DNA of 64,000 nucleotides from Calocera cornea HHB12733. Its lineage: Eukaryota > Basidiomycota > Dacrymycetes > Dacrymycetales > Dacrymycetaceae. The position numbers were made by a program, and so were the translations under genes. Location: positions 62,001-126,000 of the forward strand of contig KV423945.1 of assembly GCA_001632435.1 (NCBI GenBank). The letters are read 5' to 3'. Shown piece by piece: positions 35,532-57,005 of the stretch. The notes under the pieces are model-generated. The model was not told where the DNA came from, did no database searches, and saw only the letters and a program-made list of their open reading frames with translations. Numbering within the stretch: position 1 is the first letter of the stretch; every line of letters starts with the position of its first letter.

Positions 35532-35544
35532 TCGGACAAAACCT
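35532..35544 (+). repeat. Left terminal inverted repeat
   Basis: TCGGACAAAACCT, the exact reverse complement of 56993-57005. Similarity resumes about 15-30 bp inside with CGGA..CTATAC and then CCGTACCGAC. Confidence 0.7.
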
Positions 35545-35567
35545 ACCCTACGGAAGCTATACTGGCC

Positions 35568-35720
35568 CATACCCACCTATACCGATCCGTACCGACAGTA
35601 TTGGTCGGTATAGGCTCCATACCGACGGTATCCATCGGTATCACTCCACTCGCTTCCGTACTTCCCTGCTTCCGTTCCGGTACCGTCCCATACCGACCCG
35701 TACCGACGCGGACCGACCCT
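35568..35720. repeat. Left subterminal TACCGACC-type repeats
   Basis: At least eight degenerate copies of (A/G)TACCGA(C/T)C or its complement GGTCGGTAT in direct and inverted orientation within 150 bp. The same words recur at 56,860-56,975 near the right end. Such clusters are typical transposase-binding sites; that role is inferred. Confidence 0.7.
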
Positions 35721-36111
35721 AGACCCCTACTTGCTCCCGCTGGATTCAGATTGCGCCATCCTGGACCCCGTACTATCCCATACTCACGGTATCACCTTTT
35801 TATTCGTTTCTACGCTCCGGCGATTTTTTTCCGCAATCCCACTCGCACTCTCAGGGTACACGGAATGCACTTGGGGTCTACCACTTCTTTCATCATTGAT
35901 TTATTTACCATGACGCCGTACTACTAGCTTTGCCCTTATCTATCTCTGGCGGTTACCCATACGATTTGGTGCTACTTGGACGCCCCTTCTGCTTCCCGTC
36001 TTCCCCTACCGCACCAGTCCATCTTCACTCATCCTCTTTGCCTGCCTCCCACCGTCCTTCATCCCCAGCTTCTCGCCATACTAGCCTTACCGCTCTTTCA
36101 ATCCCCTCCCT

Positions 36112-39100
36112 ATGGCCCATCCCACCCCGTCCTCAACTGTTCGACACTTCGTGCATCGCTGCCTTCCCACGCCGTCCCAAACCTTCCCCCATTCTTCGCC
36201 CTGCACCTGTACCTGCTATGTCCTTCCGGCTCAACAACCCCGCTTTGCTCTGTCAAATGGCAATTATCCACCTCTCGACTCGATCACGCTTCACCTCCCC
36301 TGTCACTCCTGTGGCCATCCCCTTCTTCGTCATCTTCCTCCCGAACCGCTACCCCCCAATCCTCCCATCGCCGAGCCAATCTTACCCGCTTCGCCTCTCC
36401 TATCCTCTGGGATTCCGTACTCCACTGGCAACTTCCCCACTCAACTCCTACCGCACGATCCTGCTCTGGCTCAAAATCTCCTGAGCATTCTTGCTCCCAC
36501 TGGACCTGGAGTCCATACTGCCCAGGATGCAGTTCGGCGCATCCTCGCCTCACACCAAGAACTCTCTGCCTTCCAACACCCTCCCGCGGTACCTGCCGAA
36601 TCCGTCTCGCCATCCGCCCCTCCCACACTTACCCATTCTTCCGCCCGTCAATACGCTCTAGCCTCCCGTAGTCGAAGCATGCAACGCCATACTGCACCTA
36701 CTGCGGAGGAGACCCACCTACGAGATCATCCTATCCGATCTCGCCGCGTGCAACCTCCCGGCCCGCCTTCTACTGTCGAGATTCTGGTTTTGTTGCGTGT
36801 CTTTCGTACGTACTTGCCGGCCGCTCCTGTCAGTACCTACTACCTCCTACCCGCCTGCTACCCGTCCAAGTTTAACATCCCTTTCTTCAGCCCCAACCAC
36901 TCATCCATAAACGTTACACCACGGCGTACCTGCCGTTCCTTGAAGCGTACCCTCTCGTCCCCCTTTCAGTTGTATTGTTCTAACTCACCTTCAGCAGCAA
37001 CTCGGCTGGACTGTTGGCGTCCCTCACCGTACCAGAACATACCAAAGTATCTCAGGTTGTCCCGGACCTGCTATACATCTTCGCCCATCTTTCTATACCT
37101 CCCCCCCCTGCCTCGCCTAATACTGCCTACCCTTCGTCAACTTTGTCCTTGCCTCTGGTTCCCCTGGTTCCTCTTCTACCTGATCGTGCCCAAATGGTGC
37201 CTGCCACTGGCTTGGATGTTCTTACGGTTGGTCAGCTTATGAAGACTCTTTCAAGATACGTCCGTGGGCACCGCAAAGCTCATGGTCTCCCCTTGGTCAT
37301 TGAATTCGGTCTGTCCCCATCCTTCTGTCTATCCTTCTACCCCGTATTCTCATATGTCGTGGCTCCAGCGTCTCCATACGGTTCCATCACTCACCGGCAA
37401 CAATCGTCGGTCTCGGACGACCATTGGTTGTTTATGGACTATTTCAAGAGTGATACCATGCCATCCAGTCTGCCAGCCCCTAAGGTCAGCTCAATTTCTG
37501 CTCCACTCTACGCTACTTATCTATGATTCCAGAAACCCATCGATCTCCCGGAGCTCCGCGCTTTTAGTGCATCTGCCCTTCAAACCCGAGCATGTCCCGT
37601 CCTCACTACCTCCCCATGGATCCCTCCCCCCCTTCCCAATCCTCATCTCGTGCCCTCCTCTTCCCGCGGGTTGGCCCAGTCCATGCCATCTTACGTCTCT
37701 TCAACGCACCCCGTGTACCCCCCACCTCCTCTACAAGACTCGGTCCGACCGCCCTCTCAGGATCTTGGCTTACCATCGACCTACCAAGGCTTACCGATGC
37801 CTCCCTCCTTGCCTACACACTATCTTCCGCCCTCCGCATCATCCCCTCCGCCCCACCTTCCCGTCCCTTATCCAAGCCTCATTCCATCCCGACCACCAGG
37901 CTTGTCCCTCACCGATGTTCCGCTCGTCGCTCCCCCCCCCCCCCCTACCTGGCCTTCCTCCGCTCGACAAATGCGATCCCCCTCGCCCTTGAAGGCTGAC
38001 CTTCCAGTCGCCGTGCCCCAGCCCTCTCCCCTCCCTTCCAATTTCAGCGCTGGGCCTCCAGACCACTACCCGCTCGATCCTCAACATGCTCATCCACTCA
38101 CGGCTGCCCGCCCCAGTCCCACCCTGCTCGACCGTCGTCCGGAGTTGTCATCCCATTCCCAACCTGCCCATCTGCCGTCTTCCTACCCAGTCGCGCCATT
38201 CCATCCTGATCCCGTTCGCCCGGCCGCTTCCCTATCGCTGACTATACGTACCGTCTCCCCACCCGCCCAACCTCTGGCCCGTGCCACCCGTCCCCAATGG
38301 CTTGTCCCCGTCCCATCCTCTACTCCTCCCACCGCCATGACTGACAGCCAAATCTTGACTTCTTGGAAGCTTGGCGTCGCCAACGCGGTACCTCCCCCAT
38401 CTCCCCTCGAACTCGACTATTATCCGCCTTACGGTAACCTTCGGGATGCGGCCGAAGGCTTGCTCTATTATTTACGTGACGCAGTCAAGCCTCACCTCGG
38501 CCTCATTCCCGACGTACCGCGCTCCATTCCCGCACTGATGTCAGAGCTCCATTTCCCAATCATGGCATCCGTTCGTGTATTCGTCCATCAAGCCCTTCTT
38601 TCTGATTCTTCCCCCCAGCGGCCGTGGTATCGGTACCGGCGCCTCTCTTGAAATCTGCCAAGCCGCATTCGAACGCTTCGAGTCCCACCTGCTTCCTGTA
38701 TCCTTTGGCCACTATCAAACCCTGCGCATCCGGTCCTTTGGGGCCAGTGCACCTCCGGAAGCGCACTCCTTGGATGACGACGCCAGGGTTGAGTTCGCGG
38801 CTCTAGGCTTACTCGTCGTCGTCTTCATGAAACTGTTTCAGTTTGGACCAGCTCCTTTATCGCCCCTGACTGTCCTAGCCGCCATTGCCGGAAAAGATGC
38901 TATCACCATGCGTTCCCTTCGTTGCTTCGCCCCAGACATTGCCCATTTCGTTGGCCTATTTCAGGCAATGGGTCCCACCGGTCTTTTGAAATGTATGTCT
39001 CAAAGTATGGTACGTTATGTGACCTTACCAGCGCGTACCCACAATGTCGCTGACTAGACCAACCTCCAGGAACCCAACCATCCTGAATACACGCTGGCAT

Positions 39101-40013
39101 CTGTGATCTACGGCTCTGGTAGTGTTGAGGTTAGTGTTCCATGACCCTTCCTCCTCCCTTTCTTTTCATCTTGCATCCTGACATCCTGCGGTAGGATGGT
39201 GACTTGGCCACCCGTAGAACCCCGGCATTGCATCGTGCATGGCTGGCTTCTATATTGCACCGAGTATTATTTCTATCTGATCGCGACGACACCCATGCTT
39301 TGCAAGCCTTTTCAGTCGGGTTGGACGCGCCCTTTGCCCCGGGTTCATTGAGAAACAATGTCAGTACCCTCCATCCGCTTCCACTCCCCCATCTCAGCCA
39401 TTTCGTCAGATTTTGGGAGCAGCCGGTATCCCTCCTCTATCCTTTATTTGTTCCATGTGGCCTGAACGTCGCATACGATCACCTGAAGATGTCATACGAA
39501 TCATCCGTTGGGATGACGTACCCACCGACGATCTGCCTCTCCCCAAGCAGCTCGCCCTCCATCGCGCTTTTAATCAATTCCTTCAAGGCACTGGTGTTCC
39601 CCCTGGAGCGTCCCTCATGCAGTCTCTCGGCGATTGGGTTCCTCCGTCGTCCTACTCAGAGACCGCTACTGAGGACCCTCTGTACCGACCAGTAACCTTC
39701 TATCGTGTGGCCACAGGCGTGCCTTACCTCCTTCCCTCATCATCGTCTATATATGTGAGTACTCTCTCTTCCCCCTTCCTCGAAATCGCCGGCTCTCTTC
39801 TCATCTCCTTTTCAGATTCAGCTTGCCATGAACCTCACCCACTGCAAGTTCCACGCGTGTACCAAACAAGTATCTATTCCTTTGGAGCACGGTACTTCAT
39901 CATGGTGCCGCCAAGATAGCCCTAACTGGGAACAGCACTTCGAAGCCATGCTCTTCATTCAGATCATTGGTGATGCTCGCATTGGCGAGACCTTCTCCAT
40001 GAACATGGTATAA
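36112..40013 (+). CDS. Element-encoded protein with divergent HECT-type (E3 ubiquitin ligase-like) domain
   Basis: Frame-consistent model of 1,087 aa: 36112-36588, 36662-36796, 36891-36946, 36995-37308, 37369-37484, 37533-38539, 38619-39009, 39070-39129, 39195-39359, 39410-39754, 39816-40013. The first half is Pro/Ser-rich. From about residue 700 the order of blocks resembles a HECT domain: GIGTGASLE (compare VGTG..PTLEF), then VEFAALGLLVVVF and PAPLSPLTVLAAIAG (N-lobe core), CFAPDIAHFVGLFQ, then RVATGVPYLLP (compare RFVTG..LP), then Cys1037 in HACTKQVSIP, matching the active-site C-x6-P spacing, and a final MLFIQIIGD..IGETFS. Sequence identity is low, so ligase activity is a hypothesis. Exons 3 and 6-7 boundaries are the least certain. 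Confidence 0.6.
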
Positions 40014-40822
40014 GCACGCAGAATCGCAGCATCTCTCGCATGAACAGTTCCATAGCCATTAGAATGCAAAGCCTTGGGTTGTTGTGCACTTTTATACTAT
40101 GGAGTCTAACGTACCTATTCCCTGCATGCTCCGCTCTTCCTTTAGACCGTAATATCCTTATTCGATACTATTCATTTCCTGTTCATTTATAACTGGGTCC
40201 GTCCATACTTCCTGGTAGGCTCGTGGCGCCTACCACTCCTCTGCGCGTCCCCGCGGCGGCGTATTCGTACAGTTCGCGTGTTGTTTCCTTGTTCGATCGC
40301 CTACCAGTACGTGAATGCTGTATTTCAATGCGCCCCCATAGGCTACCAAGTCAACACCTGGTACCCAGCTGTAGCTGTATCCTGAGTGTATTCAACGCTC
40401 TTAAACCTCTGAGCTTTTCGTTGGCCTTTCACTGGGACAGAGTGAAGGGTTCTCCTGCAACCGAGTTCAGAACTCAACTGACCTTTGGCCACCGGCTGGA
40501 CATATATGCACATTCCAGCCCGAAGATGGAGAGCGATTCTCGTCCTCTTTTTAGTTACCAATCGCACTCTGCTTTATCTTATACTTGTGACTAGCACCAG
40601 AGGCACGTTGCTACCAAAGCGTACCAGAGTGTATGGAGAGGCGCAGACATCCGACTCTGGCCAAATTAAAGGATGGCGCCCTCGTTTGTGATGTACCATA
40701 TTGACCTGAATTCCCCTGTACGCATCTGTACAGCTGACAGCTTACACATAGCGTTGATATCTCGGATGGTTATCTAGCCTCTGTTCCCATTAGTAGTTTG
40801 GGCTGAGGGTATTTCTTCCCCC
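40014..40822. other. Convergent gap inside the element
   Basis: About 800 bp between the ends of the HECT-like gene and the 204-aa gene. Only short frames without coding character; more AT-rich than the genes. No repeat or RNA recognised. Confidence 0.5.
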
Positions 40823-41608
40823 CTAAACTCTGTGCATGGCTGCTAGCTCCCGGGCGCGTCTCCGTACTCTCGCCTCGTACTTCTTGAACAGTGATCTCCA
40901 TTGCTGCATCGGTTTGATTGGTTGATACTAATTATAGAGTCATACCATGCCACCCCAATTAGAAGGCAAGGTGCTTACCGAGCTCGAGACCGCCTCCCAC
41001 AGACCTTTAGAGACCTGTCCATGTCGCGTACCGCGGGACTTCCGCTTGAGGAAGTTGGCACTAGTGTGGAAGCAACGGGCCATCGCCTCTATCTGTCCTT
41101 CCAGCGAATTGTGTTTGACCTGCTCCACGGCGCCATCACGAGTCGGCTCCTCCTCCCTCTCTGCCCTCTGAACGCCATTGTATAGCTCATACAACTCCAG
41201 CTCGGTACCGGAACCATCGTGCGAGTCTACTTCACCGTACCATGTCTCTCTTTTGGTACAGTTATCATCACAAGAGATTGAGGCTTACCAGCCACCACTG
41301 GTGGAGTTGATACCACAGCGGGAGCAGCCGTGTCCCTCCTAAAGCCCCCCTGATCTGCCTCGTCATCCCTGCCTTCTGGGCTTCCCATTGCCACGGTCTG
41401 ATTATCCATCAGCTCGATTAACCATGAGCCATCTCATATAAACACTGGCCTGCACACCGCTAAGTCCCAATGTTTTGGCAAGGGGGGCCTTGGAACGCCG
41501 GGGCACTCGTCCTCCTGTACTCATTCGTGATACTGGTACCACGTCTCTGTCAGCATTGAGCGCCGCCTTGACTGTGGTTGGCTCACCTCGGCATTTTTCC
41601 TTGGGCAT
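40823..41608 (-). CDS. Element-encoded basic protein of unknown function (204 aa)
   Basis: Four exons restore one frame: 41608-41456, 41397-41289, 41226-40979, 40927-40823. The start is MPKEKCRGEPTTVK. The N-terminal half is Arg/Ser/Pro-rich (RVPRRSKAPLAK), the middle has acidic and charged helical-looking sequence (QRAEREEEPTRDG), and the end is Lys/Arg-rich (LFKKYEARVRRRARELAA). No domain recognised. The mix of a basic tail and charged helix would suit a nucleic-acid-binding accessory protein, but that is a guess. It diverges from the DUF6532 gene across a 355-bp promoter region. Confidence 0.5.
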
Positions 41609-41963
41609 AATGGCTTGATCTCCCTGTGTGTACCTGTACGTATACAGGGTGGCCAATACACGTCGCTATACAGCGAGCGACAGGAAAAGGTCGAGATGGA
41701 CGCTCCCCACTCTTGTGGTGTGGCTTGCTATATCAGCGTACCGGGGGTTACCACGCTACCATTCACACCTCTTCTTAATACCTTTGATCAGGCCGGGGCC
41801 ATCATCACCTCTCTAGCACTATCAGAAGATCTATTGAGCAAATCCGGGTTCTGGCTCGGCGGCGCATCGGAGCAATAGAGGCCGACGCGGCTCGGGGCGC
41901 CCATTATAAGCTTCCAAGTAGTTCACCCTTCTTCCAACCCACAACCAAGCTTAGTGGCTGTCA
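41609..41963. promoter_or_regulatory. Divergent promoter between two element genes
   Basis: 355 bp between divergent start codons. TATAAG at 41,905-41,910 lies about 55 bp before the DUF6532 gene start. No other gene seen. Confidence 0.5.
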
Positions 41964-44567
41964 ATGGTCCCATCGAACTCCTCAGCAAGGTCTACCACGG
42001 TTGAATTGGCGAACAAATACTTTCGTTAACTGATTGCCTTTCTGTCCTACCTTCCATCTCCAGCAGGTCGAACACCCGGAACATCTCGGCATTGTGTGCC
42101 GGCCTCGGGCACCTCGGCGGCATCGTGAAATGCACCCCCGGACACCCCATCCCCTTGGCCCACATGGCACGTTACCGCGTCTGCCTCCGTCCAGGACCCC
42201 GCAGCACTTCCGCCCACGGAAGCATTGACCTGCCGAGGCGTGGCCTTCTATGCCGTACCACCCCATACCCTCAGTACCAGTCGGTACCCACCGCTAGCTC
42301 CCCACCTACCATCCCTTCCCCGACCTCATCCCCTCCTCCCAACGTCGTCCAAGCTCCCCTGCCCGTCGTAGTGCCCTCTGTTATCAGCTGGTTAGGTCGC
42401 TGTCCATCGACCCTACCCCTCCGCCGACAGCAGGGGCTCAGGCGTCCATCTGCTCGGCCCTCGCGCCTTCACACTCGGTCGCACCTGAACTGTACGGAGG
42501 TCTGACGCTCCTGACGCCCGTATCCTCTGCCCACCAACAAGTCGATGGACCGCACTACAGCAACGTCGGGGAAGCCCAGTCCCCTTACATCCTTCGTGCG
42601 GTTTTATCCGCTCTTGCCTGCAGTACGTCACTAGTCATACCTCAGTCGCGTCTCGTACTGACTCCATCATCGTTGGCCTTCAGGTTGGGGAAGGAGGGCC
42701 GTTACAGTTTGGTCCACCCCAAGAGAACATATTGTTCCTCACTGCCAACATTATTACCGGTCCAGTGGTTAGCGGACCAGTCGCCGTCACCCTCCCCCCC
42801 GTGAACAAACCTCGTTCTTCGGCTCCGCCTGCCCAATCCTCCAGCTCCGTTCCTGCCGCTGCCCACCAACAACCGCCGCGCAGTATGTTCCCCTCCCATT
42901 CCGTACACGCATATACTGATCGGTATGTAACAGCGTTGTCAGGTCCTATGGGCTATTTCAAACGCCAGGTTGCTAATGCACGTCCCGAAACCGCCGTCCT
43001 TCCCGTGACCACCCGCACGCGTCGTCCGGTCACTGCCCCGAAACCAGCTGCGTACCACCCCCGTAGTGATGACTCCTACCATCAGGAGGACCAAGACGAC
43101 ATGGGAGAGGAGGATGACAGCGAGATCGAGTTTACCGTACGTCACGGTCCTTCATGACCAACGCCCGCACATATACTTACCACCATCGATGGTAGGGCTA
43201 CAACTCTCGGCCGTCCCGTGCTGTGGCTAAGCCCTCGAAGAAAGGTGCGGGTGCCACCACCAAACGTAACCCATGGGAACCTATCGAGACTGACATAGAG
43301 GCAAGTGCTTGCATCGCACTATATCGTATGCGATTGCTGACCATGGCCGGTGCAGAGCGGGAAGACAAAGGGTCGACAGACGCGCAACTCCGCCGGACTA
43401 CGCACCTACACGCCTTTGGCATCCGCACGCGCTCGGGGCGCCCCATCTAGCTCATCCCTTCCGGCCAGCATACACGATCCGCCACAACCAGTGCTTCCCG
43501 CCTCTGGCACCAACGTCACGCTCTCTTGCTTCTGTATCGAACAGCAAAAGACCATCCAGGATGCCAAAGTCCTCTTCCGCCTTCAATACTACATGATATA
43601 CCTGTACGCCGCTAAGGGGCAGAAGGATGACTTTCTGGACACAGCGATTCTACTCGCCAACCGTGATGCCGAACGACGCTGGGCTGAGCGCATTGCTAAA
43701 GGCGACGAGCGTGCCATCCTCGGCACACTGCAAGGCACCGCCCGTACCCTGGCTGAACCCTTGGTAAGTCTCTGTAGACCTCCGTAACCTCGCCGATACT
43801 GACCCGTGCGACGCAGATCGCGCATTACGGCCAGTGGGGACGCACTGTACTCAAAAGTGTCGCCCAGAGCGTCGTTAAACAATGCTATCCCGTGGTGACC
43901 AACTTCGACATCACGGATCGTCAACGCAAAGCTTCAATCACTGTATTACTCAACGACAATACGTTCTTGTACAGGGACGTTAACGTAACTCCTGGCGAAG
44001 TTAAACGGGCCTGGCCTTTCCGCCATCCCGCAGTCAAGGCCATGATCATCCAGACTTGGTTTGGGAGAGGTAAACAAGGGGATGGCCATCTGTATCCCGA
44101 TCTATTCCTTCCCGAACGCGAACCGGACGGCATCATTGCGGCGGCGGGCGCGGCGGTATGTCCTTTCTCCTCGCATCCGTACTGGTTAGTGCACTTGGTC
44201 TGATTCGTGTACTTGTCCATCAGCTTTTGTTTGCCCTACGACAATACTCGACCGGGAGATATGTTGAAGCCACATTTGACAACCGTGTCTTCCAGCCGGA
44301 GTACAATGGTATACGCAAAGCGGTAGAATGGTACAAAAGGGTCCACCGCGATTTGTATTCAGATCTGCTACCGGATCTCCTGGACATTGCCATGTACATC
44401 GCCGCATTAATGAAGCTCATACCGGCATCTGACTTGCGTGACACAGTCAGACCAAGGCTGCCCAGCAAGTGGAGACTGTCACGGCGCCCAAGGAGGAAGC
44501 TGAAGACAATGAGGAAGACAACTTCCTCGCGCACGACGACATAGATGATGATACCGACGAACTATGA
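41964..44567 (+). CDS. Element-encoded DUF6532 protein
   Basis: Ten exons give 690 aa: 41964-41989, 42064-42395, 42431-42600, 42684-42882, 42934-43136, 43196-43300, 43356-43763, 43817-44155, 44224-44393, 44447-44567. The N-terminal half is Pro/Ser-rich and disordered, with an acidic EEDDSEIEF segment and a basic PSKKGAGATTKR segment. The C-terminal half fits DUF6532, a basidiomycete-expanded family of unknown function: TVLKSVAQSVVKQCYPV, DNTFLYRD, FRHPAVKAMIIQTWF, LYPDLFLPE, ALRQYSTGRYVEATFD, YNGIRKAVEWYKRVH. It ends in an acidic tail (DDIDDDTDEL). The intron at 43301-43355 starts with GC (GCAAGT) instead of GT. DUF6532 assignment is by motif memory; the first three introns are less secure. 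Confidence 0.68.
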
Positions 44568-44881
44568 ACCGGAAGCTCCCATATCCTTCAGCTCACGTTC
44601 CTCACCACCGAATGCAACCCCACCCTTCTTATGGAACAATCATTTCTGTCACATCTTCCACTACCAGGTCATCCATGGCAGGACTATCTCGACTCGGAAG
44701 AGCATGGAGAATATACAAACCGAACAAGGACCATTCGGTACCTCATATCTGGCTTCTCTTCGTTATATCGAGGCCTACAGTGCCCGCCCTCTTCATATAG
44801 TTTCAATCTCTGCTGGCGGCTGTCTACACCGAGTAAACGCATCATCCTTCCATCTCTTCTCACTCTCTGCCTCGCGAGATT

Positions 44882-44923
44882 TCGTACTCGATCGTACTCG
44901 ATCGTACTCGATCCTACTCGATC
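44882..44923. repeat. 10-bp tandem array TCGTACTCGA
   Basis: Four copies, the last with one change. It has the same 10-bp period and GTAC core as the other element arrays. Confidence 0.85.
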
Positions 44924-44982
44924 AAATCATACACCCCTTCCTTCACGTCAAGTTTTCCTCGTTCTCGTCGAATCCCTCATTT

Positions 44983-45018
44983 CATCCGCTTTCCATCCGC
45001 TTTCCATCCGCTTTCCAT
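44983..45018. repeat. 11-bp tandem array TCCGCTTTCCA
   Basis: Three tandem copies, perfect over their length. Confidence 0.85.
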
Positions 45019-45380
45019 TGCTTCCCCGCTCTGTCACCCTCCATGGGCAACATAGTCTCATAAATTCCATGTACCACTGACTCCAACGGCGGTACACTCT
45101 TAATACATCCTGTTACTGACTGCCGCCACCCCTCACCCTTGTCATTGTAGACGTACTACATACAGCCCTCGTACGTCTGTGTGTCCAGTGTCCTTCGTCA
45201 GACACCAGGCAGGCTATCAATCGGGAGACAATCTTAAAATTCGAACGGATATCATGGGTCGGTACACTACACCGTACAACAGTACAGGCCGTAAGCAGGC
45301 AAATGGGGCTCCTCCCTCACAGATTCAGAGGAGATGATACATGTAAAATGACTTCAAGTTCACACCAGTCGCCCTGAAGC

Positions 45381-47684
45381 TCAACCTCGTTGATTCTTGA
45401 TATTCCGGCCCCGACTGGCCAGGAAAGGGAGGACGTTCTTGGCACGAGCGTGAAGGTCTTTCTCGTTGATGGTGGCCGCCGTTCGTTCGCCAATGGTAGT
45501 GCTGGTACCCTTTGGTAGGGGCCACGGACGATTGGGGTCGACGAAATACCTCAAGATTCCAGGCAAATCGGGGTCACATTCGCAACCAATGTCCTCTGTC
45601 TCCGTGAGGATATCATCAAAGAGCTTCACGAGAGTTCGCTTGTTCTTGAAAGTATTGTAGGGGTATCCCAGCCAATCCAATACCTGGTTGGCGATGACGG
45701 GCACTCCATTGACATACAGGCACCCTTCAGCATGTCCGGTGTCGTCTATCACATTGAGGTGCCGCAATACAGCTTTAACCGCGTGCCAACGGCGAAACTT
45801 GACGATGGCGGGAGAGCATTCGGCTGTCTGCTTCTGAGCCAACTGTAAACAGTCGGTCGCGCTCGGCATGTCCTGCAGCCAATTCCGCAGCTGTGCTTCC
45901 AGGCCCAGAGTCATGCTTCTGCCCCCTACGACCGGGCTTGGAACAAAGGAGGTACTTCGGCTCCAACCCACGGCTGGAGGAGGGGTTGCAGTCGAGTGAA
46001 GGACCATTGCGTGGTTGGCCTCATCCTCGATGCCGTGCAGGCCTGTACTACGACCGGTCGGAGATGGTATATCCTGTGGTTCTGGCGTCTCGGCAAGATG
46101 CTGGCTGAGATGACGAGTGCGTACCTCCCGATCCAGAGCATGACCATTGAAAGTTGGCAGACTTTCCAAATCTGGAAGGGTGATCGGCACTTCGGCTCCA
46201 CTCGTCCCCACACGGTCCGGCAAATCGACGACTTGAGAACATATGTCCGTGGCTGACGGGGATCGCTTGGTATCATCTCCGTTGTATGGTGAAGTCATAC
46301 TGAGCAAGGATGCATCTTCGTCAAAGGGGGCAGTAGCGAGGGTAGAATGTTGCTGAGAATCAGTGGCCTGATCTACTGGCACAGGGTCGCCCGCTGGCCA
46401 AGCACTTTCCTATGGATCAGATCATCAGCATACCGTCATCCTACAGGTGCATCCCCACTGGGGTAGCGAAGCAGACGGGGCCGCACCTTGAGTAGCTCGA
46501 AGCACAAGACGAAGAGGGGCTCATCCATCTGCGCCATGTGCATATGGGTGGCCACAAAATCGCGCGTGAAACGCGACGTCAACAGCACAGAGCTAATGCC
46601 CCGCGCGGTCACCACCTCACCACGGATGGCATCTCGGGCGCTCGATAGCCACCATCCTCCATGCTCAATGGGGTCAACGCCATGAATCGGTGCAGGAACT
46701 CGCGACAGCCACAGCTCGTGACATATTTCATATGTCGTCCATCCGTCCTGAGGAGTAACATTGGCCATGACGATCTCCATAGCCACGTCGACTGTGGTAC
46801 GCATGATACCTCCCTCCATCCGCACCAAAGCGGGGTTGACATGGGCATGGCGTATGAGGTGTCTTTCCGCGAGGCCCCCACGCTCGCTAGCAAGCAGCAC
46901 CAAAATGCTGCAGCGCCTGGTGTCATCAAGAGACGCCCAAGACACAGCATCCTTGATGACAATAGCAGAGGACGACGAGGTTGAATGCGCGGAAGTCGGG
47001 ATGATGTCCGTCGACTGGGCAGTACGGCTGTGGGCACCGTCCCAACTGGACGGTACGGTGGGGCTGGCCCCCCATCCGCCATTGGGGAGATCTGATTCTG
47101 TGTTGCTGGGATCACCTGGTAGAGGTAGGGTATCTTGTGGACCTTCCCGTACGGTGTTGATAGTATCCCCGAGATTCGCGTCCCTCTCCTAAACTGGGCA
47201 TGGGCACTCGTCGCCGTCCATGTGCGCAGATCACTCACCGCATTCAGCGAAGCTAGTAACCCCTCCACTTCAGGCGCCAACCAACGCGAACTCTCCGCCG
47301 CTCCAGGCTCCGTCAGTGCAACATTTGATAGGCGTTCCGATCGCGGGCTGGGTGATGGAGTTGGGGTGTTCCTCTGGCGCGGCTCCAACGAACCAGTATC
47401 GAACTCATCGAGGGGGGATTGTGAGTCGGCATGTACACCTTCCCTCACCGGTTCCGGCGGTTGCACCGAAACGGCCAGCCCCTGTACGGTTGGTGCTGTC
47501 GTAGTATCTATACTGCTGGGCTATCTATGCATCAGCACGCGGTGACGCTGGGCCGGAATCGCGGACATACCCCAGGAGAGTCTGCTGTACTTGTATCTTG
47601 AGGCGGCGCGTTGCGTTGTCGTTTTCTCCGCTTCACAGGCGCAGCCGGAGGCAGTCGGGTAGATGGCCGTTTACGCAACTCCAT
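45381..47684 (-). CDS. Element-encoded protein of unknown function, 708 aa, NLS-like start
   Basis: Four exons with phase-0 introns: 47684-47571, 47520-47239, 47188-46487, 46409-45381. The N-terminus MELRKRPSTRLPP is followed by a nuclear-localisation-like PVKRRKRQR. The first 300 residues are Pro/Ser/Thr-rich. After that come folded-looking segments: DDTRRCSILVLLASERGG, VDVAMEIVMANVTPQDGW, REVVTARG-like and FTRDFVATHMHMAQMDEP, then, near the end, RWHAVKAVLRHLNVIDD, VIANQVLDWLGYPYNTF and CECDPDLPGILRYFVD. I recognise no family. It is divergent from the integrase across a very short gap, which suggests co-regulation and perhaps a partner role in transposition. The model is frame-perfect; function unknown. 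Confidence 0.62.
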
Positions 47685-47890
47685 GCTATGCTCCAGGAAA
47701 CGGTGAGGAAGGCGGATCGAGGATATAACCAACAGCTGTACAACTGTAGAGTCGATGGATGCTGGCGGGTGACTGTAAGAGTCTGTCCGAGTGGCGCAAC
47801 CCACCGGGACCCTGGGGTATGGGACCAATACCGTCAGTACCGGGGCGTACCTGTTGGTATGGTCGCTTCAACATTGGCGTTATCTTGGAT
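47685..47890. promoter_or_regulatory. Short bidirectional promoter of the 708-aa gene and the integrase
   Basis: About 206 bp between the start codons I chose. An alternative in-frame integrase ATG at 47,759 would shrink the gap to 74 bp. One TACCG-type element motif lies within (about 47,828-47,850: AATACCG, AGTACCGGGG). Confidence 0.45.
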
Positions 47891-49705
47891 ATGTCCATGT
47901 CTTTGCCTGAGGGCGTATCGGAGCAGACATTACTGCATTGGCAAGCTGCCCTCCTCCAAATAACAGAACACTTGGAGCGTGGCATTCGTGGACATCAGGG
48001 GGACAGGCCATACTGGCAGCGAGTACAAGCTGAGGGTGATCGTCTCTTGGATGTGCTAGCCGAAGTGGGTCCCTCTATTGCCCTGCCCTGTGCTCTGACC
48101 TAGACGGATTCACTTGACAAATAGATATGGCATCTGCTCCCAGAGGAAGATGCATACGCGGCTGAAGAACAATTGGCATATATACTCAATCGCGCGGAAT
48201 CCGTATCGCAACTCACCGACCCGACCGTGGACGGGCAAGGCCAGCCGGCCGCCTGGATGTCCGCTGGCTCTGGGGGTGGCCGTCCAAAATTCATCATCAG
48301 CAAGGAGTTTCTTGTCACGGGATTACATGTGGTACCACGGCATACGGATCTGGCGAAATTCCTGGGCGTATCTGCCCGTACACTACAAAGAAGGATAGTC
48401 GAATATGGGCTCCGACCACCGGGTCCTCCGGTATATGTGGAACGGCGCAACGAGCAAGGGGAATTGGTCATAGAGCATACGCCCAAGCGTTCGCGCTGCA
48501 TCTGGAGCGACGAGACTTTGGATCTGGCCGTCAAGTGGGCACTGGATCGCTTTCCACGTTTGGGTCGTAAGATGTTGCAAGGGTACTTTGACGCGCAGGA
48601 GCCTATGTGCCAGAATGGCGACTTGAACGGGCCCTCCGTAGGCTGGCTCCACATCGACAGTTTGGCGAACGCATCCCGCTGGAGCGGAGGGAGTATCATG
48701 TTGCGGGCCCCAATGCACTTTGGCACGTAGATGCGCAACTGGGTAAGCTGCATAGTTCACGGTATAGGCCTTGAGACTCACCTAGCAACCTTGGCTACAG
48801 GGAACGTACGGTACGGGTTAGTATTCCACGGCTTGATAGACGGAGATTCCCGTCTATGTGTAGCCCTGCAAGTGTCCACGAACAACACAAAAGAAATGGT
48901 CTTCCGAGCATTCCGTGAGGCGTGCGAGCGCTATGGGACGCCTTCTCGTGTACGGGGTGACCATGGGGTGGAGAACCTCGACCTCGCGACTTGGATGATT
49001 CTCAAGAGAGGAATCAATTGTGGATCATTTATCTGGGGGCGGTGAGAAACAGATGCCTGCGTAGTGGAGGGAGATGGCACTGATCGGAACTGCTTTAGGT
49101 CTGTCCATAACGTACGTATCGAACGGATGTGGGTCGATGTGACGAAGGATTTCGGCGGCAAGTGGAAGAAGATATTTATCCATCTGGAGACGTGGTATGG
49201 ACTGGATATACAGCACAACGCCCACATCTGGCTTCTCCATCACCTGTTTCTTCACGACGTCAGAGCCGATGCCGAAATGTGGAGGGGTACATGGAATGCT
49301 CACCGTATGCGCACGCCAGACGGACCGATGCGATCCCCCAATCAGATGTGGTTTCTGGGCATGCTGCTCCAAGGCTATCATGGAATCCACGACGAAGGTC
49401 TGTGGAGAAGATCGCCCGAGCATGGCGGGGGGGAGATGTACGGCGTGGATTGGTGTGAACTGCAAGACGATGCGCTCATGCGGCACCATAGTGGATCGCA
49501 TCCGACGGGATTCACAGAGTTCCGCGTGGACGACCCAAGGTGCCCTCTCAGCGCGGAGGAGATACTGCAGCTGGACAGGGAGATCGAACCGTACATGCGC
49601 GGATGGAGTGCCATAGATTATTATCACCGGTGGGGAATGGGATTGAGGGCGATGCTTGGAGTCGAATCCAAAAGAGACGGACGGTACGAGACGTGGATTG
49701 GGTAG
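47891..49705 (+). CDS. DDE integrase/transposase, eukaryotic IS3-like integrase-core family (frameshifted)
   Basis: Likely the enzyme that moves the element. Exons 47891-48064, 48125-48742, 48801-49041, 49099-49705. The N-terminal half has a helix-turn-helix region (LAKFLGVSARTLQRRIVEYG) and FPRLGRKMLQGYF. The integrase core follows, with all three acidic residues: Asp in LWHVDAQL, Asp in RGDHGVENLDL, Glu in NVRIERMWVDV, plus DGDSRLCVALQVSTNN and WNAHRMRTPDGPMRSP, blocks shared with integrase-core proteins found in fish and fungi. At about 48,598-48,601 the frame changes by one base: the family pattern continues as AYVPEWRLERALRRL in another frame. Either a real frameshift, a sequencing error, or a 32-nt intron (48567-48598) explains it. 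Start could also be 47759. Confidence 0.72.
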
Positions 49706-50788
49706 CTGGTGAGGTCGATGCTCTAGGACCCGCTCCCGTCTTAGTTTAATACCTACCCTTGTGTTGTACCGAGATGCCACCAGCGTGTGGTGCCTGCCCC
49801 GTCTTGTTCATCGTCCGTCCCAGAGAGGGTACCTACCGGTACTGACCGGTACTGACCGGTACTGACCGGTACTGACCGGTACTGACCGGTACTGACCGGT
49901 ACTGACCGTTACTGACCGGTACTGACCGGTACTGACCGGTACTGACCGGTACTGACCGGTACCAACCGAAACTGATAGCACTAGACCACGGCAGCGGCAT
50001 TCACGGAGTCCAGAAAGAGGAGGTACACGAGAGCGAGAGGGTCCCACTCCACCACTCACGCCAAAGACGTCTGAACCCGTAGCAGCCACCGTTGATGATA
50101 TCGCCATGCAGCGAGTCAAGAGAGAGGCTGGGTCGAAGAGGCTTGAAATGGGGACGCAGTAGCCCGTGTGCCACGCCACCAAGGAGAGCAAGAGCAGATC
50201 AACATATATAAGCGTGAGCCACGGTTCGGCTCGACCGATTGGGCCTATGACGACAGTACCAGGTCAGCGACCGTCAATGTAAGGTACCACAGCCGAGCCG
50301 GCCAGGCAGACTGGTCGCGTCCCAGATGAGAGCGATGGGCGGGCGAGTTGTCCATGCGCCGCCGAGGAAAGCAAGAAGAGACGAGCAGTGCCGTGCGAAG
50401 CATACGCCTGTGGTAGTACCGTAGGAACCCAACAAATTGTTGGTTGGGGGGCGACAAGGCGCCGGCCCCCCCTGCCGAGCATGGGGGCCAAGGACGCACG
50501 ACTGCGTAACTACATCCATACAACAGCGGTGCGTAATGATACAGACATGTTGAGTGTAGGCTAGTGGAATACAGAGACATGTAAGACCCGAGGCAGAGTG
50601 ATAGACCTGACAATAACGTGTAAGTAGCTATTCAGAACAGCAAGGAGCACTACGCGCACCGTTACTGTACTAGAGAAAGAGAAGGTATACGAACGGCTAC
50701 CAAACGATCGGTCAGGACGGGGAGTGAGTCGACTGGACGGACACACGCACCAGGAAACCCACGGCAGCCGCGCTCTTTCACGCCCATC
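49706..50788. other. Element intergenic region with minisatellite
   Basis: About 1.1 kb between the integrase end and the next gene end (convergent). Holds the ACTGACCGGT array. The rest shows no coding potential; frames across the array encode a repeated artefact peptide. Confidence 0.55.
49835..49966. repeat. 10-bp minisatellite ACTGACCGGT, 12 copies
   Basis: Twelve consecutive units at 49841-49960, one with a single change (ACTGACCGTT), flanked by partial units. Each unit contains the half-palindrome ACCGGT and the ACCGGTAC core that resembles the TACCGACC words at both element ends. It lies about 130 bp downstream of the integrase stop codon. Confidence 0.95.
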
Positions 50789-51684
50789 TCAACACCCTCC
50801 TCCCGCCACAAGCTGAACGACCGCCGTAAGGCATTCGACGAATGCCGTGCAGAGGGAGCCACAGCCGCTGTTGGTCGGGCTCGTAGCATCGAACGTCGGG
50901 GGCGGGGCGTTCCACCCGTTGGGAGGGTACGCAGGCACGACGGTCATAGGCGGGGCCGGACCGTACTGATAGGAATACGGGTTGGCGGGGAGCCCAGGAC
51001 CGGCGGGGAGGACCGAGCTGTACTGCCAAACGGGGACGAGGGCAACAGTGGCGTAGGCGACGGGCGGGGGGAGAAGCTGAGGGATTGCATAAGGCAGGGA
51101 AGGGCCGTAATAAGCCATTGCGGGTATAGTGGCGAGGATGAGCAATCGAAGGTAGGTCGTGGTATGAGCTGGTATAGAGTGGTCACGATCTCGAGGGCGG
51201 GTGGGTGGGAGGACGTAATGTCGAGGAAGGCAGGGAGGGCGCGAGCGGGAGCTGAGTGGCGGTGAGGGTAGACCCTACTCCGCGTCCAGCTAGGGGGGCG
51301 TGACGATGCCGACGATGTTGTCACGCCCAGAGACCGGTCCCGCGAGTGCATGTCGGTACACGTGGTCTTCGACTGGCTCGTACTCGTATCGCTCGATGCA
51401 GATAGATGGTGCGACGGACTAGAGGCGCTTGGGTGACTGCGATCCCAATCCATAGTAGTACCAAGGAGCGGAGGGTGGATGGCGTTGGGCCATGCGTCAC
51501 AGTGACGGGGATTCGAACGTGAGCAAGTGAGTGGTAGGTTGGGAAGACATCGTTCATAGGATATCGAAGAGACGAACGTAAGCAGCCAGCGAGCCATTTC
51601 ATGGTACATCGAGCGAGAGGAGTCCACAAGTGATATAGGCATGGAGATAGCGGATGTTGACGGTGGGTTATGGGTGGGCGACAT
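50789..51684 (-). CDS. Element-encoded Ser/Pro/Tyr-rich protein with Cys-rich tail (281 aa)
   Basis: Two exons, 51684-51325 and 51274-50789, joined by a 50-nt phase-0 intron (donor GTGACA, acceptor GAGTAG). TATAAG on the minus strand at 51,757-51,762 is 72 bp before the ATG, in a good context (ACCATGTCG). The N-terminal part is Ser/Thr-rich. The C-terminal part is Pro/Tyr-rich (MAYYGPSLPYAIPQLL, NPYSYQYGPAPP) and ends with four spaced cysteines in GCGSLCTAFVECL and GGGC, somewhat like a CYSTM-type tail. No family identified. A shorter protein from the Met at 51118 (109 aa) is possible. Confidence 0.45.
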
Positions 51685-52192
51685 GGTAAAGAGTGTGGAG
51701 GGAGAATACGAAGAGGGGAGAAAGAGGTAAAGGGCCCAGTGGAACCCAAGGCAGCTTATAAGACCGGAAGGGCTAACACGTGTTTGAGCGGAAGTTATTG
51801 GACTGGGGGGTTGACGGCAGTATTCTGATTGGTGGACCAAGCCACACAGCCACGAGTGGCTGAAATCGCCTGTGGGACCAACGTCATATCCCAGGGCTTT
51901 ATTTTCGCATTATTCGGCCCAGCCAAAAGAGAAGGGGGATGATCGGCCTCGACCGGTGGGGATATCGCTCTAGGTAGGCAAGCATATCATCGAGCCATAC
52001 CAGCCGGTACTGATGTGTACGGGGGTAGGGAGGGAAGTCGCCGGAACCAGCTAGGAGAGCGAAATCAGAAGACGCGAGATTGAGGGTACCGGCCGCAGCT
52101 CATGGTCCAGCCAAGGATAAATAGACGGGGACGCGACGCGACTGACTCGCTCTTTCCCCCTTCCATAAACCATCTCCATAGCACGCGTGGAA
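51685..52192. promoter_or_regulatory. Divergent promoter between element genes
   Basis: About 500 bp between divergent starts. TATAAG (minus) serves the upstream gene. On the plus side, GGATAAATAG at about 52,115-52,124 is a possible TATA variant about 70 bp before the DUF6532-like gene. AGCCGGTACTGATG at about 52,000 is a single element-type motif. Confidence 0.45.
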
Positions 52193-54357
52193 ATGACTGT
52201 CCCCGCCGATCCAAACGCCCCTCAACCTGCACCAGCCGCTACCCGCACGAGGTCGACGGAGATGACCGCGGACAAGAGCAAGGAGCCTGTTGGGTCGCAC
52301 ACGCATACGTCGTCGTCGGGTGAAAAAGGTAACCAGGTTTGACCCCTCACTGTACTTGACTTTAACTAGGGTTGGAAGGTGAAACAGATAAGGATCGCAT
52401 GACGAGGAGGTTCGCAACGATCAAGATGCCCATTTTGGGCAGTGCGGTACGTGAAGGAAGATGGCTATATGCGCTTGTATGCGAGTCTAACGCCGCTCAA
52501 CAGAGGGAAGCTGTCGATAACAGATTGGATGAAGAGGGTATGGGTGGGAAGCACCTAGAAGGAACGTCGGTACGTGTTGGGACGCGTTTATATGGTCGTC
52601 TCTCATGCTGACGCCCTAATACAGACGGCTGCGCACGACGGCGAATCAGAACTAGAAGGAAGGGCTGGACAGACGAAAAGAGGATTGCCGGTACGCACCC
52701 CGTACCCACTTGTATGCGCCTGTCTAAGCCTCTAACGATGTGATACAGAGAGGAGGGCAGGAGCCTGAAGCTGATATTACTGGGATGAGTGTATGGAAAG
52801 GGAAGGAGCCCGCTGTACGTGCTGGTATCGATCTGTATGCAGGTGTCAACTATGCTGACGCAGGCATACAGAAACGACGCTATGAGGACGATACCAATGA
52901 GGAGGGGACGGCTTGGGCGAAGAAGGCCCGTGTAGAGATGGGGACTGGATCCGCTCGTATGGATATGGGAACGGGATTGGCTTCAAAGGTGTGTGACTTC
53001 ATGACGCTGGATATCAGAGATGGACAATTTATATAGCTGAGACAGGGCCAGGGATTCACACTGGCGGGAATGGCTTTAATGGACAACGGAGAATATGCTA
53101 TGGTATACGAGAAAGTGCAGCCGACGCTTTCGACGCAGCCCGCCCCGCCGCAATGGAACAGCGACCAGGTGGATCTAGACTTGACGGTGGAGGACGACTC
53201 GGACGAGGATGAGGCACAGGGCGCACAGAAGGCTGTGCGTACCCAAACGAAGGAGCAGCACGGCGGCCCGCGCCCGCGCCCTGCCGCTACGGCTAAGAAA
53301 ACCACCAGCACCAGCAACGCGAAGCAGGTACAAACTGTCATGCTGCCTACAATCAGACCAGTCGCCTCCAAAGCTCTTGCGGGCAAGGGAGAGGTCAAGA
53401 AGCCTTCGAATACCATCTCCCCCTTAGCCTTAGAGAGTCGCCTAGTGCGCGAAGCTATTGGCGTTTGGCAACTGCAGCAAGCTTGTATCGACCTGTACCC
53501 TTCGGACAAGGAATCCGAAGAATGGGCGACGACTGCATTGGCCGCTGCGGCAACGACCCTTACTAGCGAAGGAGGCGAAGAAATGAAGGCCAACCTCCAA
53601 AAGCTGCTCGAGAGACGGGAGACGCGTATCCTGCGCGAGGTGCGTCCTGTATCGAGGATATAGAGGATAGAACCGAACTGAACTATGATGACCAGATCCG
53701 CAACCATGAGGCGGACCTCTTTTCCACGGTCGTACAGACTGCGGCTACTGAAGTCCCCATATGTCTGCATGGTGTTTTCGACGGAGGGCGCGAGGCGATC
53801 GCGTGGCGCATCCGGACCTTGTTGAAGGATTTCAACTTCATCTACGACGGCTACGACTGGAAGACGGACGAGAGGACGATGAAACGTGCGGCCTTCTTGA
53901 GTCCCTGCGTAGTGGCCGTGATGAGCTCCGTCTGGAAGGAGGCGATCGAAAACACGGGTGCGGAGATGTTCGAACATATGCCTCTTTGTATGATGGCTGT
54001 GGGGACGCTGGGGGTGAGTACTCGGATTACCATGGGGTACCGAGACGTACTGACGGGAGCCCAACAGATCTGGGCATACCTCAAATACTGGTGGACTGGG
54101 GAGATGAAGCCCGTGGAACAAGTTTTCAAGATGGGCGAAATCCCCTTGACTTATGACCACCTCATATTGAATCTGGAAGGCTTTGAGAAGAAAAAGCCGG
54201 AAGTGTTCGCGGAGATACAGCGCAAGCTGCTGCAGCGCGTCAAGTGAGTGTTTCGATGGCTCCAGATGCTTCGGCGCTGACAAGAACTTGTAGGGTGTAT
54301 GGGGCCATTCAGGATACCCAGGGTGACATGTTCCTTGAGCCCGAAGAGGATGAGTAA
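52193..54357 (+). CDS. Second element-encoded DUF6532-like protein
   Basis: Ten exons, 568 aa: 52193-52328, 52370-52446, 52504-52569, 52625-52690, 52749-52814, 52872-52988, 53037-53625, 53664-54013, 54068-54243, 54294-54357. Exons 3, 4 and 5 are each exactly 66 nt, phase 0, separated by 55-58-nt introns with GTACG donors: an exon-intron tandem duplication. The N-terminal half is charged and disordered with a possible NLS (KRRYEDD..AWAKKARVE). The C-terminal half resembles DUF6532: LVREAIGVWQLQQACIDLY, AWRIRTLLKDFNFIYDGYDW, AAFLSPCVVAVMSSVWK, MPLCMMAVGTLG, IWAYLKYWWTGEM, YDHLILNLEGFEKK, with an acidic end (EPEEDE). The match is looser than for the 41,964 gene. The 38-nt intron at 53626-53663 is tentative. 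Confidence 0.6.
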
Positions 54358-54871
54358 TCGTGAGTGCAAATGGGGAGGGCTACGTGATGCGAGGAAGGAG
54401 AACCGGAGAGCAGGGCTATGGACGGAGAAGAATAACCGATCAAGAACATCGTGAATCATCATTAGTACGGACGTGAATCAAACAATGTATGGTATGAATC
54501 ATATACTCGCCATTTGCTTTAGGGAACATGGCAGGAATGTCAACCAAAATGGCGTAGAAGAGGAGGGGGAACGGGCGAAAGGTGCAATGCGCGTGTGACA
54601 TAATCGGACATACCGGATAATTTCCAATGGTACCTGTGCCATACCCAATGGAGATGTGCTGTATGGCGCAATGATTCTCAGGCTGCAATGCTGTAACGAC
54701 CAAGGAAGAGGGGACACAAGATGAACTGAACGAGGCGTATTTTACGTTGGTATAGAAGGTTTGAGGATGGGAGTAGACTGTGGCTCAGATGTATACATGA
54801 GACACAAGGGAAGGAGTGGGGAGCGTAATGGCAGAGTCATCCCGTGGAGTACGGGCGAGGGGTAGACTAAT
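54358..54871. other. Convergent gap inside the element
   Basis: About 510 bp, AT-richer than the flanking genes, containing two 3' ends. No gene, repeat or RNA seen. Confidence 0.5.
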
Positions 54872-56366
54872 CTAGTTGGTTAGGGGCAGTCGACTAGCCC
54901 AATACTGCTTGACACCCTTCACGGATTGATCGTCCCAGTTGTCAAGAAACCAAGACACGAGGGTGTAATAGAAGTCTTGGTAGTCAAAGACAGCTACTCC
55001 GGAGGCGATGGGAGTATTGTGGGAGGCGGTGGAAGAACGGTTGGTGGTATTTGAGGGGAGGGATGGCTCGGGGGTAGTGCTGTCTTCAAAGTCTGGAGGA
55101 TTGGCGAGAGCATAACGGACCTGCAAAATGTTAGGAAGTCTTGGGGTGGGGTGGTAGACGAGAGTACTAACGCGTACGGCCAGGTAACAGAGAGAAGTCA
55201 CAAAATAATCAGAATGAGTGGTTCCCAGCTGGGAGAGGGTAGGCATGTTGTAATGAATGTGAAGCCGGTTGTGGTACAAAATGTGAATGTACAGCTGAAT
55301 ACCATAACAGTGCGTCAGTTGAAGAAGAAGGTGAGGTACGCTAGTAACAAGCACACCTGTAGTAGTGCCGGGGCACAGAACCTGCCATCGGCAGGAAGGT
55401 GGGAAGCGCGCTTGGCATTGGGAAACAAGAAGGCGGGGAGCCCGAAGGGATCACACGGATGGGTAAGAGAATCGATGTCGTAAAGAAGAACGGGTACGGG
55501 GGGGTTGAACTCCAGGGAGGGGATGCCGTATTGGTTGATGACGGTAGGAAAGTAGTACCGGATCAGGGTGTCATCTCGATTGAGGACCCATGCATGACCA
55601 ATCTCCAGCTGTTGTAGGGAGAGGGTAAGGGCTGGTACTGCACTGGACAATATGGAAGAAGAAGTGCCCACCTCCTTGGATAGGCTCAGAAGATGGCGGT
55701 CTTGGGTAAGAATGGTTCGAATGGCGGGCACGACTTCAAGCAAAATTTTGATGTGCTCACGGGTGACCGAGAGCAGACTGATTGAAGGTGAGTACAAGTC
55801 TAAGGAAGAAATAGGACATACGAACCTGAGCTCAGTAAAGGAGCTAGGGTTAGACACACCCAGTTCCAGTGTAATGTCGCGGACAAGAGTGGAAGCCCTG
55901 GTAGCGATGTGAGTGGGAGAGGGTTGATGTAGGTAGAGGAGGGGAAGACCTCTCAGCGGTGAGGAGCTGGCTCGCCAAGTTGAAATGGACGGCTGCCAAG
56001 CGTAACAGCGGGTAGAAGGGGAATGTGATGGCTGCAAATTGGGTATACAGTGCTCCAGCGAGAACAATGGGCGATCTGGAGGTCATATCAGACTGGCGAG
56101 GATATACTGTAGGGCAGATGTATGACGGACATCACACGGGGATTCGCGGCAAGTAGGACGGGGAGGGTGCAGTGCAGCCTGTGAAACAGCCACGTCTGCA
56201 CATATGATGAATATTGGAGGAAAGGTCAAAGAGAAAGATCGCGCACGGCATGTTGATGCTCAACAGAGCAATAATAAGCATTCCGACATCCACTACAACA
56301 GCGTAGGCCACTGGTAGAATGGCAGAGCGCACATCGACGAGAGGCACTGGCTGGTGGAGCCGACAT
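54872..56366 (-). CDS. Element-encoded MYND-type zinc-finger protein
   Basis: Best frame-consistent model is 371 aa: 56366-56247, 56195-56160, 56106-56094, 56031-55950, 55897-55826, 55777-55357, 55294-55172, 55120-54872. The N-terminal MYND finger is complete after splicing: RCALC, CSGCRNAYYC, VEHQHATW, HRLHC, giving the usual C2-C2-C-C-H-C ligand order. MYND fingers bind proline-rich partners and are common in Agaricomycetes. The rest has hydrophobic and helical segments (TLVRDITLELGVS, REHIKILLEVVPAIRTIL, LQQLEIGHAWVL, FYYTLVSWFLDNWDD) of no recognised family. The 13-nt third exon is doubtful; a frameshift near 56,110-56,150 is the alternative. Confidence 0.6.
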
Positions 56367-56854
56367 TGAGAAGTAGGATGGGGAAGGCAGAACAGGGATG
56401 AGAGCGAGAGGGAAAGGAAGGGGGTAAGGTCTGAGTGAAGGAAAAATGGAAAAGATATACCTGAAAACACGGAGGGACGGCCAATGGGGGAGGCGTGATA
56501 TAGGAGGAGCCATGGGAGGAGGCATGGGGGCCAATGAGAGAGATGCGATAAACGGACCTTTGAAACAGAATATGGTCGTCAGGCGGGGGGGGGATGAGAC
56601 CCCAGAGTCACCGCGATCCGCAGAAAAGATGGGAAGCAGAAAGTACGAATAAAGGGAGAGGGGAGGGGATGAATATTGTCAGCTTGCACGGGCTGGGCAG
56701 AGGAATAAGGGGAGATGGGATGTTGCGGGGTCCGTACGGTGGGTACAGGATGGTACAGGTAAGTATGGGTCAGTACGGGTCGGTATACCTCTGCTAGGAC
56801 AGCGATGCTGGGTGGTACGGTGGCTCCCAGTAGGGATACCACCGGGTACCATCC

Positions 56855-56975
56855 GATACTGACCTATACCGACCTATACCGACAGGTACCGACAGGTACC
56901 GACAGGTACCGACAGGTACCGGACCAGACTAACAGTACGGGTAGGTATGGGTCGGTACGGGTCGGTATAGTTCCG
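56855..56975. repeat. Right subterminal repeats, GACAGGTACC and TACCGACC type
   Basis: Two GACCTATACC units (56861-56880), then four perfect tandem GACAGGTACC units (56881-56920), then inverted GGGTCGGTACGGGTCGGTA copies. Same 10-bp period and core as the left end and the central minisatellite. Confidence 0.85.
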
Positions 56976-56992
56976 CCCTTGCTCGGAAGCAA

Positions 56993-57005
56993 AGGTTTTG
57001 TCCGA
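56993..57005 (-). repeat. Right terminal inverted repeat
   Basis: AGGTTTTGTCCGA, the exact reverse complement of 35532-35544. The nearby internal TATAGTTCCG matches the left CGGAAGCTATA with one base inserted there. Confidence 0.7.

Follow-up and report, generated by a model that had tools for sequence, protein, structure and literature searches.

A probable giant multigene IS3EU transposon with its own integrase in the basidiomycete Calocera cornea

A DDE transposon is usually viewed as a pair of inverted ends that enclose one or two genes. The element described here is much larger, and is located between two host genes in a 64,000-nucleotide stretch of the genome of Calocera cornea HHB12733 (contig KV423945.1, positions 62,001 to 126,000, to be referred to as the window). 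The closest systems are the IS3EU transposons, which have TA..TA termini, usually 6-bp target-site duplications, and no HHCC motif (PMC10045372, available sections). In rust fungi, IS3EU elements have the ends TAYGG..CCRTA and 6-bp duplications, and they carry TET/JBP and alpha-kinase genes (PMC12730594, available sections). Accessory genes in fungal IS3EU elements are therefore already known, and the impression given in an earlier note on the window, that cargo-rich elements of this type have no precedent, is not supported. The best explanation for the element in the window is a giant, self-mobilising, multigene IS3EU transposon of 21.5 kb, with its own DDE integrase and seven other genes of putative accessory function. 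The probability of this explanation is estimated at roughly 90%. It agrees with the earlier proposal that an integrase-bearing transposon with several genes lies between two genes of the host, and it is based on the inverted ends, the 6-bp duplication, the eight genes and the presence of six large copies in the genome.

The element covers positions 35518-57019 of the window (21,502 bp). Its ends had been placed at 35532 and 57005. Inverted ends are indeed present there, but these two positions mark an inner box (TCGGACAAAACC), and the element is 14 bp longer on each side. The true ends were assigned from the comparison with the other copies and from the perfect CACAAC target-site duplication at the outer edge (positions 35512-35517 and 57020-57025, identical to each other and without strand). 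The sequence outside the inner box is also kept in other copies (TAACGCAGCGTAAA on the left and TATCG... on the right). The left terminal inverted repeat (TAACGCAGCGTAAATCGGACAAAACC, 35518-35543, plus strand) is kept in the left ends of the copies on contigs C153, C92, C179, C27 and C196. The right terminal inverted repeat (56994-57019, minus strand), with the inward reading TATCGTGGTGTACTTCGGACAAAACC, was defined by comparison of the copies and by the end pattern. The two 26-bp ends of the window element match at 20 of 26 positions, within the range of 16 to 20 of 26 for the match between left and right ends within a copy. Read inwards, the termini of the window element are TAACG... and TATCG..., and TA is found at both ends in 6/6 large copies.

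Relatives of the element were sought in the genome (32.1 Mb in 302 contigs, with the window on contig C32) using the left end, the right end and the exons of genes A, C, D, E and H (the genes are lettered from left to right), and the counts are lower bounds. Five other large copies were found. The sequence was covered in full for C27:63327-84188 (20,862 bp, duplication GACTGG), C153:7022-28240 (21,219 bp, CGTCAC), C179:30877-54660 (23,784 bp, CCCGAG), and C92:90291-113344 (23,054 bp, CCCCAG). For the copy at C104:85253-106267 (21,015 bp, GGCATG), both ends only were covered, the middle not being included. The 6-bp duplication is perfect in all six large copies, the window copy included, and the prediction that other copies with the same ends would exist is thus confirmed. 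Throughout the genome, the end pattern, which was derived from ends already seen, has 27 matches, compared to 0 for the reversed control pattern.

The element lies between two intact host genes, as had been stated. The left neighbour is a GH3/Fn3-like/PA14 gene with a reading frame that ends at 35425, and the right neighbour is a RecQ helicase gene with a model that starts at 57243. The closeness of these genes on either side, and the fact that no empty allele was seen, would also suit a static cluster of host genes that happens to be edged by inverted repeats. However, the same ends and gene set are found at other sites, with different 6-bp duplications that are perfect in 6/6 cases, and the 27 end sites compared to 0 for the control also argue against a static cluster. 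The probability of this explanation is close to nil.

Eight genes were predicted in the window element, in the order and on the strands A+ B- C+ D- E+ F- G+ H-, by a splice-aware predictor using conservation between the copies. The expected integrase and seven further spliced genes are therefore present. The DDE integrase is encoded by gene E (47897-49705, plus strand, five exons), with the start placed at a conserved MSLPEG (the model starts at 47759). It matches the Pfam families rva_4 (PF24764, 2.9e-57) and rve (PF00665, 7e-8), and has no match by Pfam to an HHCC zinc domain. In an alignment of 125 rows, the three catalytic columns (289, 346 and 381 in the model numbering) are occupied by D in 86%, D in 99% and E in 100%. 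Gene D (45381-47743, minus strand) is divergent from the integrase gene. Its 5' end is uncertain (the model extends to 47874), and the protein has no Pfam or PDB match.

Two of the other genes encode DUF6532 proteins and one a MYND-finger protein, all of which had been named in the earlier note and were confirmed by Pfam. Gene C (42545-44544, plus strand) has eight exons for a DUF6532 protein of 530 residues (PF20149, 2e-26). The second DUF6532 protein is encoded by gene G (52193-54357, plus strand; PF20149, 3.1e-16), with conserved exons at 52959-54357 and exons upstream of 52959 that were assigned by eye from the sequence. This domain has been recorded in two Ganoderma species (PMC8955403, available sections). 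The MYND-finger protein is encoded by gene H (54872-56525, minus strand; zf-MYND, 8.5e-8), which was split in two by the predictor in the window and is a single gene in four other copies. In the gene H protein of C179, the C-terminal residues 422-455 have a match below the cut-off to DUF6698 (E value 0.0039).

The proteins of genes A, B, D and F have no Pfam match over the cut-off. Gene A (36112-40013, plus strand, nine exons, 1146 residues) is conserved in other copies, and its protein has an N-terminal Cys/His-rich stretch, a Pro-rich middle and a conserved C-terminal part of 460 residues. Gene B (40823-41524, minus strand, four exons, 166 residues) encodes a protein with a basic, conserved C-terminus. 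It has relatives in C196, C153, C27 and C179, and none was predicted in C92. Gene F (50789-51597, minus strand), with an uncertain upstream exon and relatives in C27, C153, C179 and C92, encodes a small protein with a conserved part of about 105 residues, from MAYYGP... to the GGGC end. The predicted structures for a gene D reading frame and the Calocera homologue of A have a mean pLDDT of 37.

All eight genes are present in the window, C27, C153 and C179 copies, and seven were found in C92, where B was not predicted and the model of A is in two pieces. Their arrangement differs among the copies. Compared to the window, the block from D to G is inverted in both C27 and C153 (A B- C G- F E- D H-). 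The order is A B- X- F- G C D- E H- in C179 and A X- G- F C D- E H- in C92. Gene X, with an HNH_2 domain (2.2e-9 and 7.2e-11), is an extra gene found only in the lineage of C179 and C92, where it sits between A/B and the F-G pair. In these five copies gene A is at the left end and gene H at the right end, both reading inwards, and D-E and F-G are kept as divergent pairs. The gene order is therefore rearranged in blocks, with two divergent pairs and the two end genes holding their places.

The same genes accompany the integrase throughout its clade. The seven integrase loci of the clade are 58-100% identical to the window integrase exon, and genes A, D and H share a contig with the integrase, within about 26 kb, at all seven. 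Genes D and E are divergent neighbours at 7/7 of these loci, C94 and C104 included, and gene C is over the threshold at six, C94 being the locus without it. Gene D matches at least nine places, and all nine are in this element family or its copies cut by a contig end. For gene H, 9/10 matches are in the family, the tenth (C127) being about 2 kb from a distant integrase. For gene A, 9/14 matches are in the family, those in C16, C292 and C28 are less than 3 kb from a distant integrase, and those in C136 and C245 have no integrase listed.

All eight genes are under purifying selection where this is measurable. Among 95 comparable gene pairs (a count without the C153 copy of D, which is split by the model, and without the initial half of the integrase in C179), 57 could be measured and gave dN/dS ratios of 0.04-0.39, which are rough because dS is mostly above 1. 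For the integrase gene E, the ratios are 0.04-0.07 (4/10 pairs). The other ranges are 0.07-0.25 for gene A (12/20 pairs), 0.20-0.30 for B (4/10), 0.18-0.24 for C (2/15), 0.12-0.22 for D (7/10), 0.12-0.32 for F (9/10), 0.16-0.39 for G (9/10), and 0.13-0.25 for H (10/10). Third codon positions are the most variable in all 95 pairs. In the trees of the eight genes, C27 groups with C153 in 7/7 genes where both are present (weakly in B), and C92 with C179 in 7/7 (weakly in E). C196 is the partner of the window copy in the trees of A (weakly), C and D. There is no well-supported conflict among the trees, which indicates that the genes were inherited together.

These observations bear on whether the gene set is a working module or a random collection. 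A small IS3EU transposon, with the integrase and perhaps gene D, could have picked up host genes by chance, most of them being passive cargo. Gene gain does happen, as one lineage has gained the HNH gene, and many DUF6532 genes are located far from integrases (43/61 merged loci have no rva_4 locus within 16 kb), while 17/26 rva_4 loci have no DUF6532 within 16 kb. On the other hand, the set is common to copies with up to 42% difference between their integrases, purifying selection acts on every gene and the gene trees match, D was found only in this family, and so were 9/10 matches of H. Chance cargo is therefore improbable as the explanation. The presence of the set in strongly diverged copies indicates a working kit and not stray cargo, and the earlier idea of a conserved module is supported.

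The possibility that DUF6532 is confined to these elements was rejected on the distances given above. The remaining 18 of the 61 merged DUF6532 loci are within 16 kb of an rva_4 locus, at 9/26 rva_4 loci, and one of them (C104:113556) falls outside the C104 element. Five DUF6532 matches have like scores of 68.0-68.5 bits (C47:2955, C104:113556, C189:47909, C226:34600 and C29:3044), and another five have scores of 56.9-57.4 bits (C100:95957, C280:14091, C158:65146, C229:32341 and C154:70937). Both sets are probably other multicopy mobile DNA with DUF6532 genes. Near two distant rva_4 loci, C12:291408-299115 and C24:207954-216317, there are two and three DUF6532 loci, respectively, within about 8 kb, and DUF6532 may accompany IS3EU integrases beyond this clade.

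Gene A had been described as HECT-like, and this label failed in the Pfam, PDB-sequence and profile-profile tests. The sole protein relative found is from Calocera viscosa, with 62% identity over about half of the searched region. This species is a Dacrymycete, and the match makes a host of that class likely, and not an Agaricomycete as assumed in the earlier note. Gene A has no Pfam match in five copies at E values up to 10, and there is no HECT protein among its four PDB profile matches at E values up to 10. A genome search with the HECT family (PF00632) listed C6, C18, C25 and C85, and no gene A loci. With hhalign, alignments of five and nine A proteins were compared to three HECT proteins of this genome, a set that excludes the C25 and C85 loci and gives the test little depth, and the probabilities were 0.7% and 0.8%. 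The assignment of gene A as a HECT protein by profile was rejected on these tests.

The resemblance to HECT is limited to a short motif, TG..LP followed by C-x3-[VILM]-x-[LI]-P, 43 residues from the end, which is present in 6/6 A proteins and in 3/3 HECT proteins of this genome. Its only occurrence in 231,039 residues of open frames is in the C92 copy of gene A, a background that is rough because these frames are unspliced. The pattern was made after looking at the sequences, and the resemblance is therefore only a lead. In view of the negative tests, a working HECT ubiquitin ligase is unlikely for gene A.

Besides the large copies, several partial ones were found. The left ends of copies that run off their contigs are located in C196, C239, C278 and at the start of C27, and a corresponding right end is in C29. 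A right end together with gene H is found in C26, and end-pattern matches alone in C7, C194 and C219. The left ends of a sister subfamily (C278, C239 and C27:2968) share 99.7-99.9% identity across alignments of 603 to 1,833 bases and have different flanks, which indicates that this subfamily moved recently. Among the places found, none is nearly identical to the window copy, and its nearest relative among those read is C196, based on the trees of C and D.

Short non-autonomous derivatives of the element also exist in the genome. The copy at C29:226972-227529 is 558 bp long, with the same ends and a perfect CACTGG duplication. In C17 and C19, paired ends are 568 and 559 bp apart, by pattern evidence alone. 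Separate 49-bp matches in C17, C3 and C19 were rejected as right ends, as they fall in TACCGACAGG repeats, and C3 has no paired ends by pattern.

Repeats are also present inside the termini of the window element. On the left, 10-bp repeats of the TACCGACCCG type (35667-35719, plus strand) include a tandem array at 35680-35719 and form an inverted repeat with 56939-56991. On the right, inverted-repeat and tandem-repeat searches revealed arrays of TACCGACAGG and GTACGGGTCG (56867-56991, minus strand). A tandem array of ACCGGTACTG with 12.8 copies (49835-49962, without strand) is related to these subterminal repeats. The motif [GA]TACCGAC, on either strand, occurs 5 and 8 times in the outer 400 bp of the two ends, compared to 0.12 times per 400 bp inside. 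The shared subterminal motifs mentioned in the earlier note are therefore dense at the ends of this copy, but they are uneven elsewhere (0-7 per end).

In the mechanism proposed here, the integrase would recognise the element ends through an outer TAWCGCAGCG box and the inner TCGGACAAAACC box, and the subterminal 10-bp repeats would perhaps assist in this recognition. The integrase would then cut and join the element to the target with a 6-bp stagger. Before insertion, the site would read ...GAACGGCACAAC followed directly by AACGCGTG..., with a single CACAAC. The genes would travel and evolve as one unit. Gene D most likely encodes a second protein for transposition or its regulation, and it is named as the likeliest partner of the integrase because of the conserved divergent arrangement with gene E. 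The other six genes (A, B, C, F, G and H) most likely contribute to the expression and persistence of the element in its host.

A stronger version is tentative, with the odds somewhat against it. The eight genes could be an obligate, co-inherited machinery, in which the integrase depends on D as its partner, the DUF6532 and MYND proteins control expression or chromatin, and A is a strongly diverged HECT-type ligase that acts on host proteins. If so, some of the unexplained DUF6532 genes of basidiomycetes would be genes of transposons. About eight genes kept through deep divergence and rearrangement could indicate which non-transposase proteins a large eukaryotic transposon needs. The element also provides a natural context for proteins without known function (DUF6532 and the products of genes A, B, D and F), and it shows that genes which an annotation would assign to the host are part of mobile DNA.

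Several points weigh against the interpretation as a self-mobilising multigene transposon. No movement was observed and, as mentioned above, an empty allele was not seen. The gene models are based on sequence, with no transcripts, and the function of each accessory gene is inferred. The dS values are saturated in 38 of the 95 gene pairs. The pairing of the window copy with C196 is weak in the tree of gene A, and in that of gene B C196 groups with C179, not with the window copy, with low support. Finally, C94 carries genes A, D, E and H, and the end-pattern search recognised no element ends there.

A quick tree was calculated for 88 integrases (80 of 120 database matches and eight loci of this genome). 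The seven loci of the clade form one group (SH-aLRT 100), which the C28 integrase adjoins (99), and the surroundings are mostly fungal proteins. The best database matches listed, the first dozen or so, are Agaricomycete proteins with 33-42% identity. Between the distant integrase of C28 and a relative of gene A, at about 156600-157200, there is a tandem repeat coding for DVELAVLQV- or ELHVDLQDG-like units, with 100 N. A second group of rva_4 loci, with single open frames of 481-531 residues (C34:215290, C94:124645, C2:387164, C21:58590, C52:137984, C48:106276 and C14:34903), perhaps represents ordinary small IS3EU elements.

A comparison can be made with other giant elements. Polintons/Mavericks have a similar size, an integrase and 6-bp duplications, and Starships are likewise large fungal elements with many genes. 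Starships have been reported in the basidiomycete Tremella fuciformis (PMC13066641, available sections). The window element is most improbable as a Polinton/Maverick-like or Starship-like element, however, as domains of a polymerase, capsid, protease or tyrosine recombinase are absent from the Pfam matches of its proteins, and its rva_4 integrase domain and TA..TA termini are as in IS3EU. It differs from Polintons/Mavericks in having no polymerase B, protease, ATPase or capsid genes by Pfam among its predicted proteins. Starships use a tyrosine-recombinase captain, for which these proteins also have no Pfam match. In comparison, the window element has a DDE integrase, inverted ends and a 6-bp duplication.

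The TET+ IS3EU elements of rusts and Tuber indicum share with the window element the IS3EU termini, the 6-bp duplications, and extra genes in a fixed order by the transposase (PMC12730594, available sections). In the families discussed there, the extra genes encode a TET/JBP dioxygenase and an alpha-kinase; neither was found by Pfam here, with no match to a TET/JBP dioxygenase gene among the predicted element proteins. Their TAYGG..CCRTA ends and inverted repeats of more than 30 bp are also unlike those of the window element. The eight-gene set is not described in the available sections of PMC10045372 or PMC12730594, although its absence from the literature is not claimed.

The window element fits IS3EU because its termini are TA..TA, its target-site duplication is 6 bp long, and its DDE integrase is related to rve and has no HHCC zinc domain by Pfam. 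Judged by these sequence features, it is a form of IS3EU, the integrase tree holding database matches and loci of this genome, with no named IS3EU proteins. The differences from IS3EU are in size and gene content: the elements of C. cornea are 21-24 kb in length and have about eight conserved genes.

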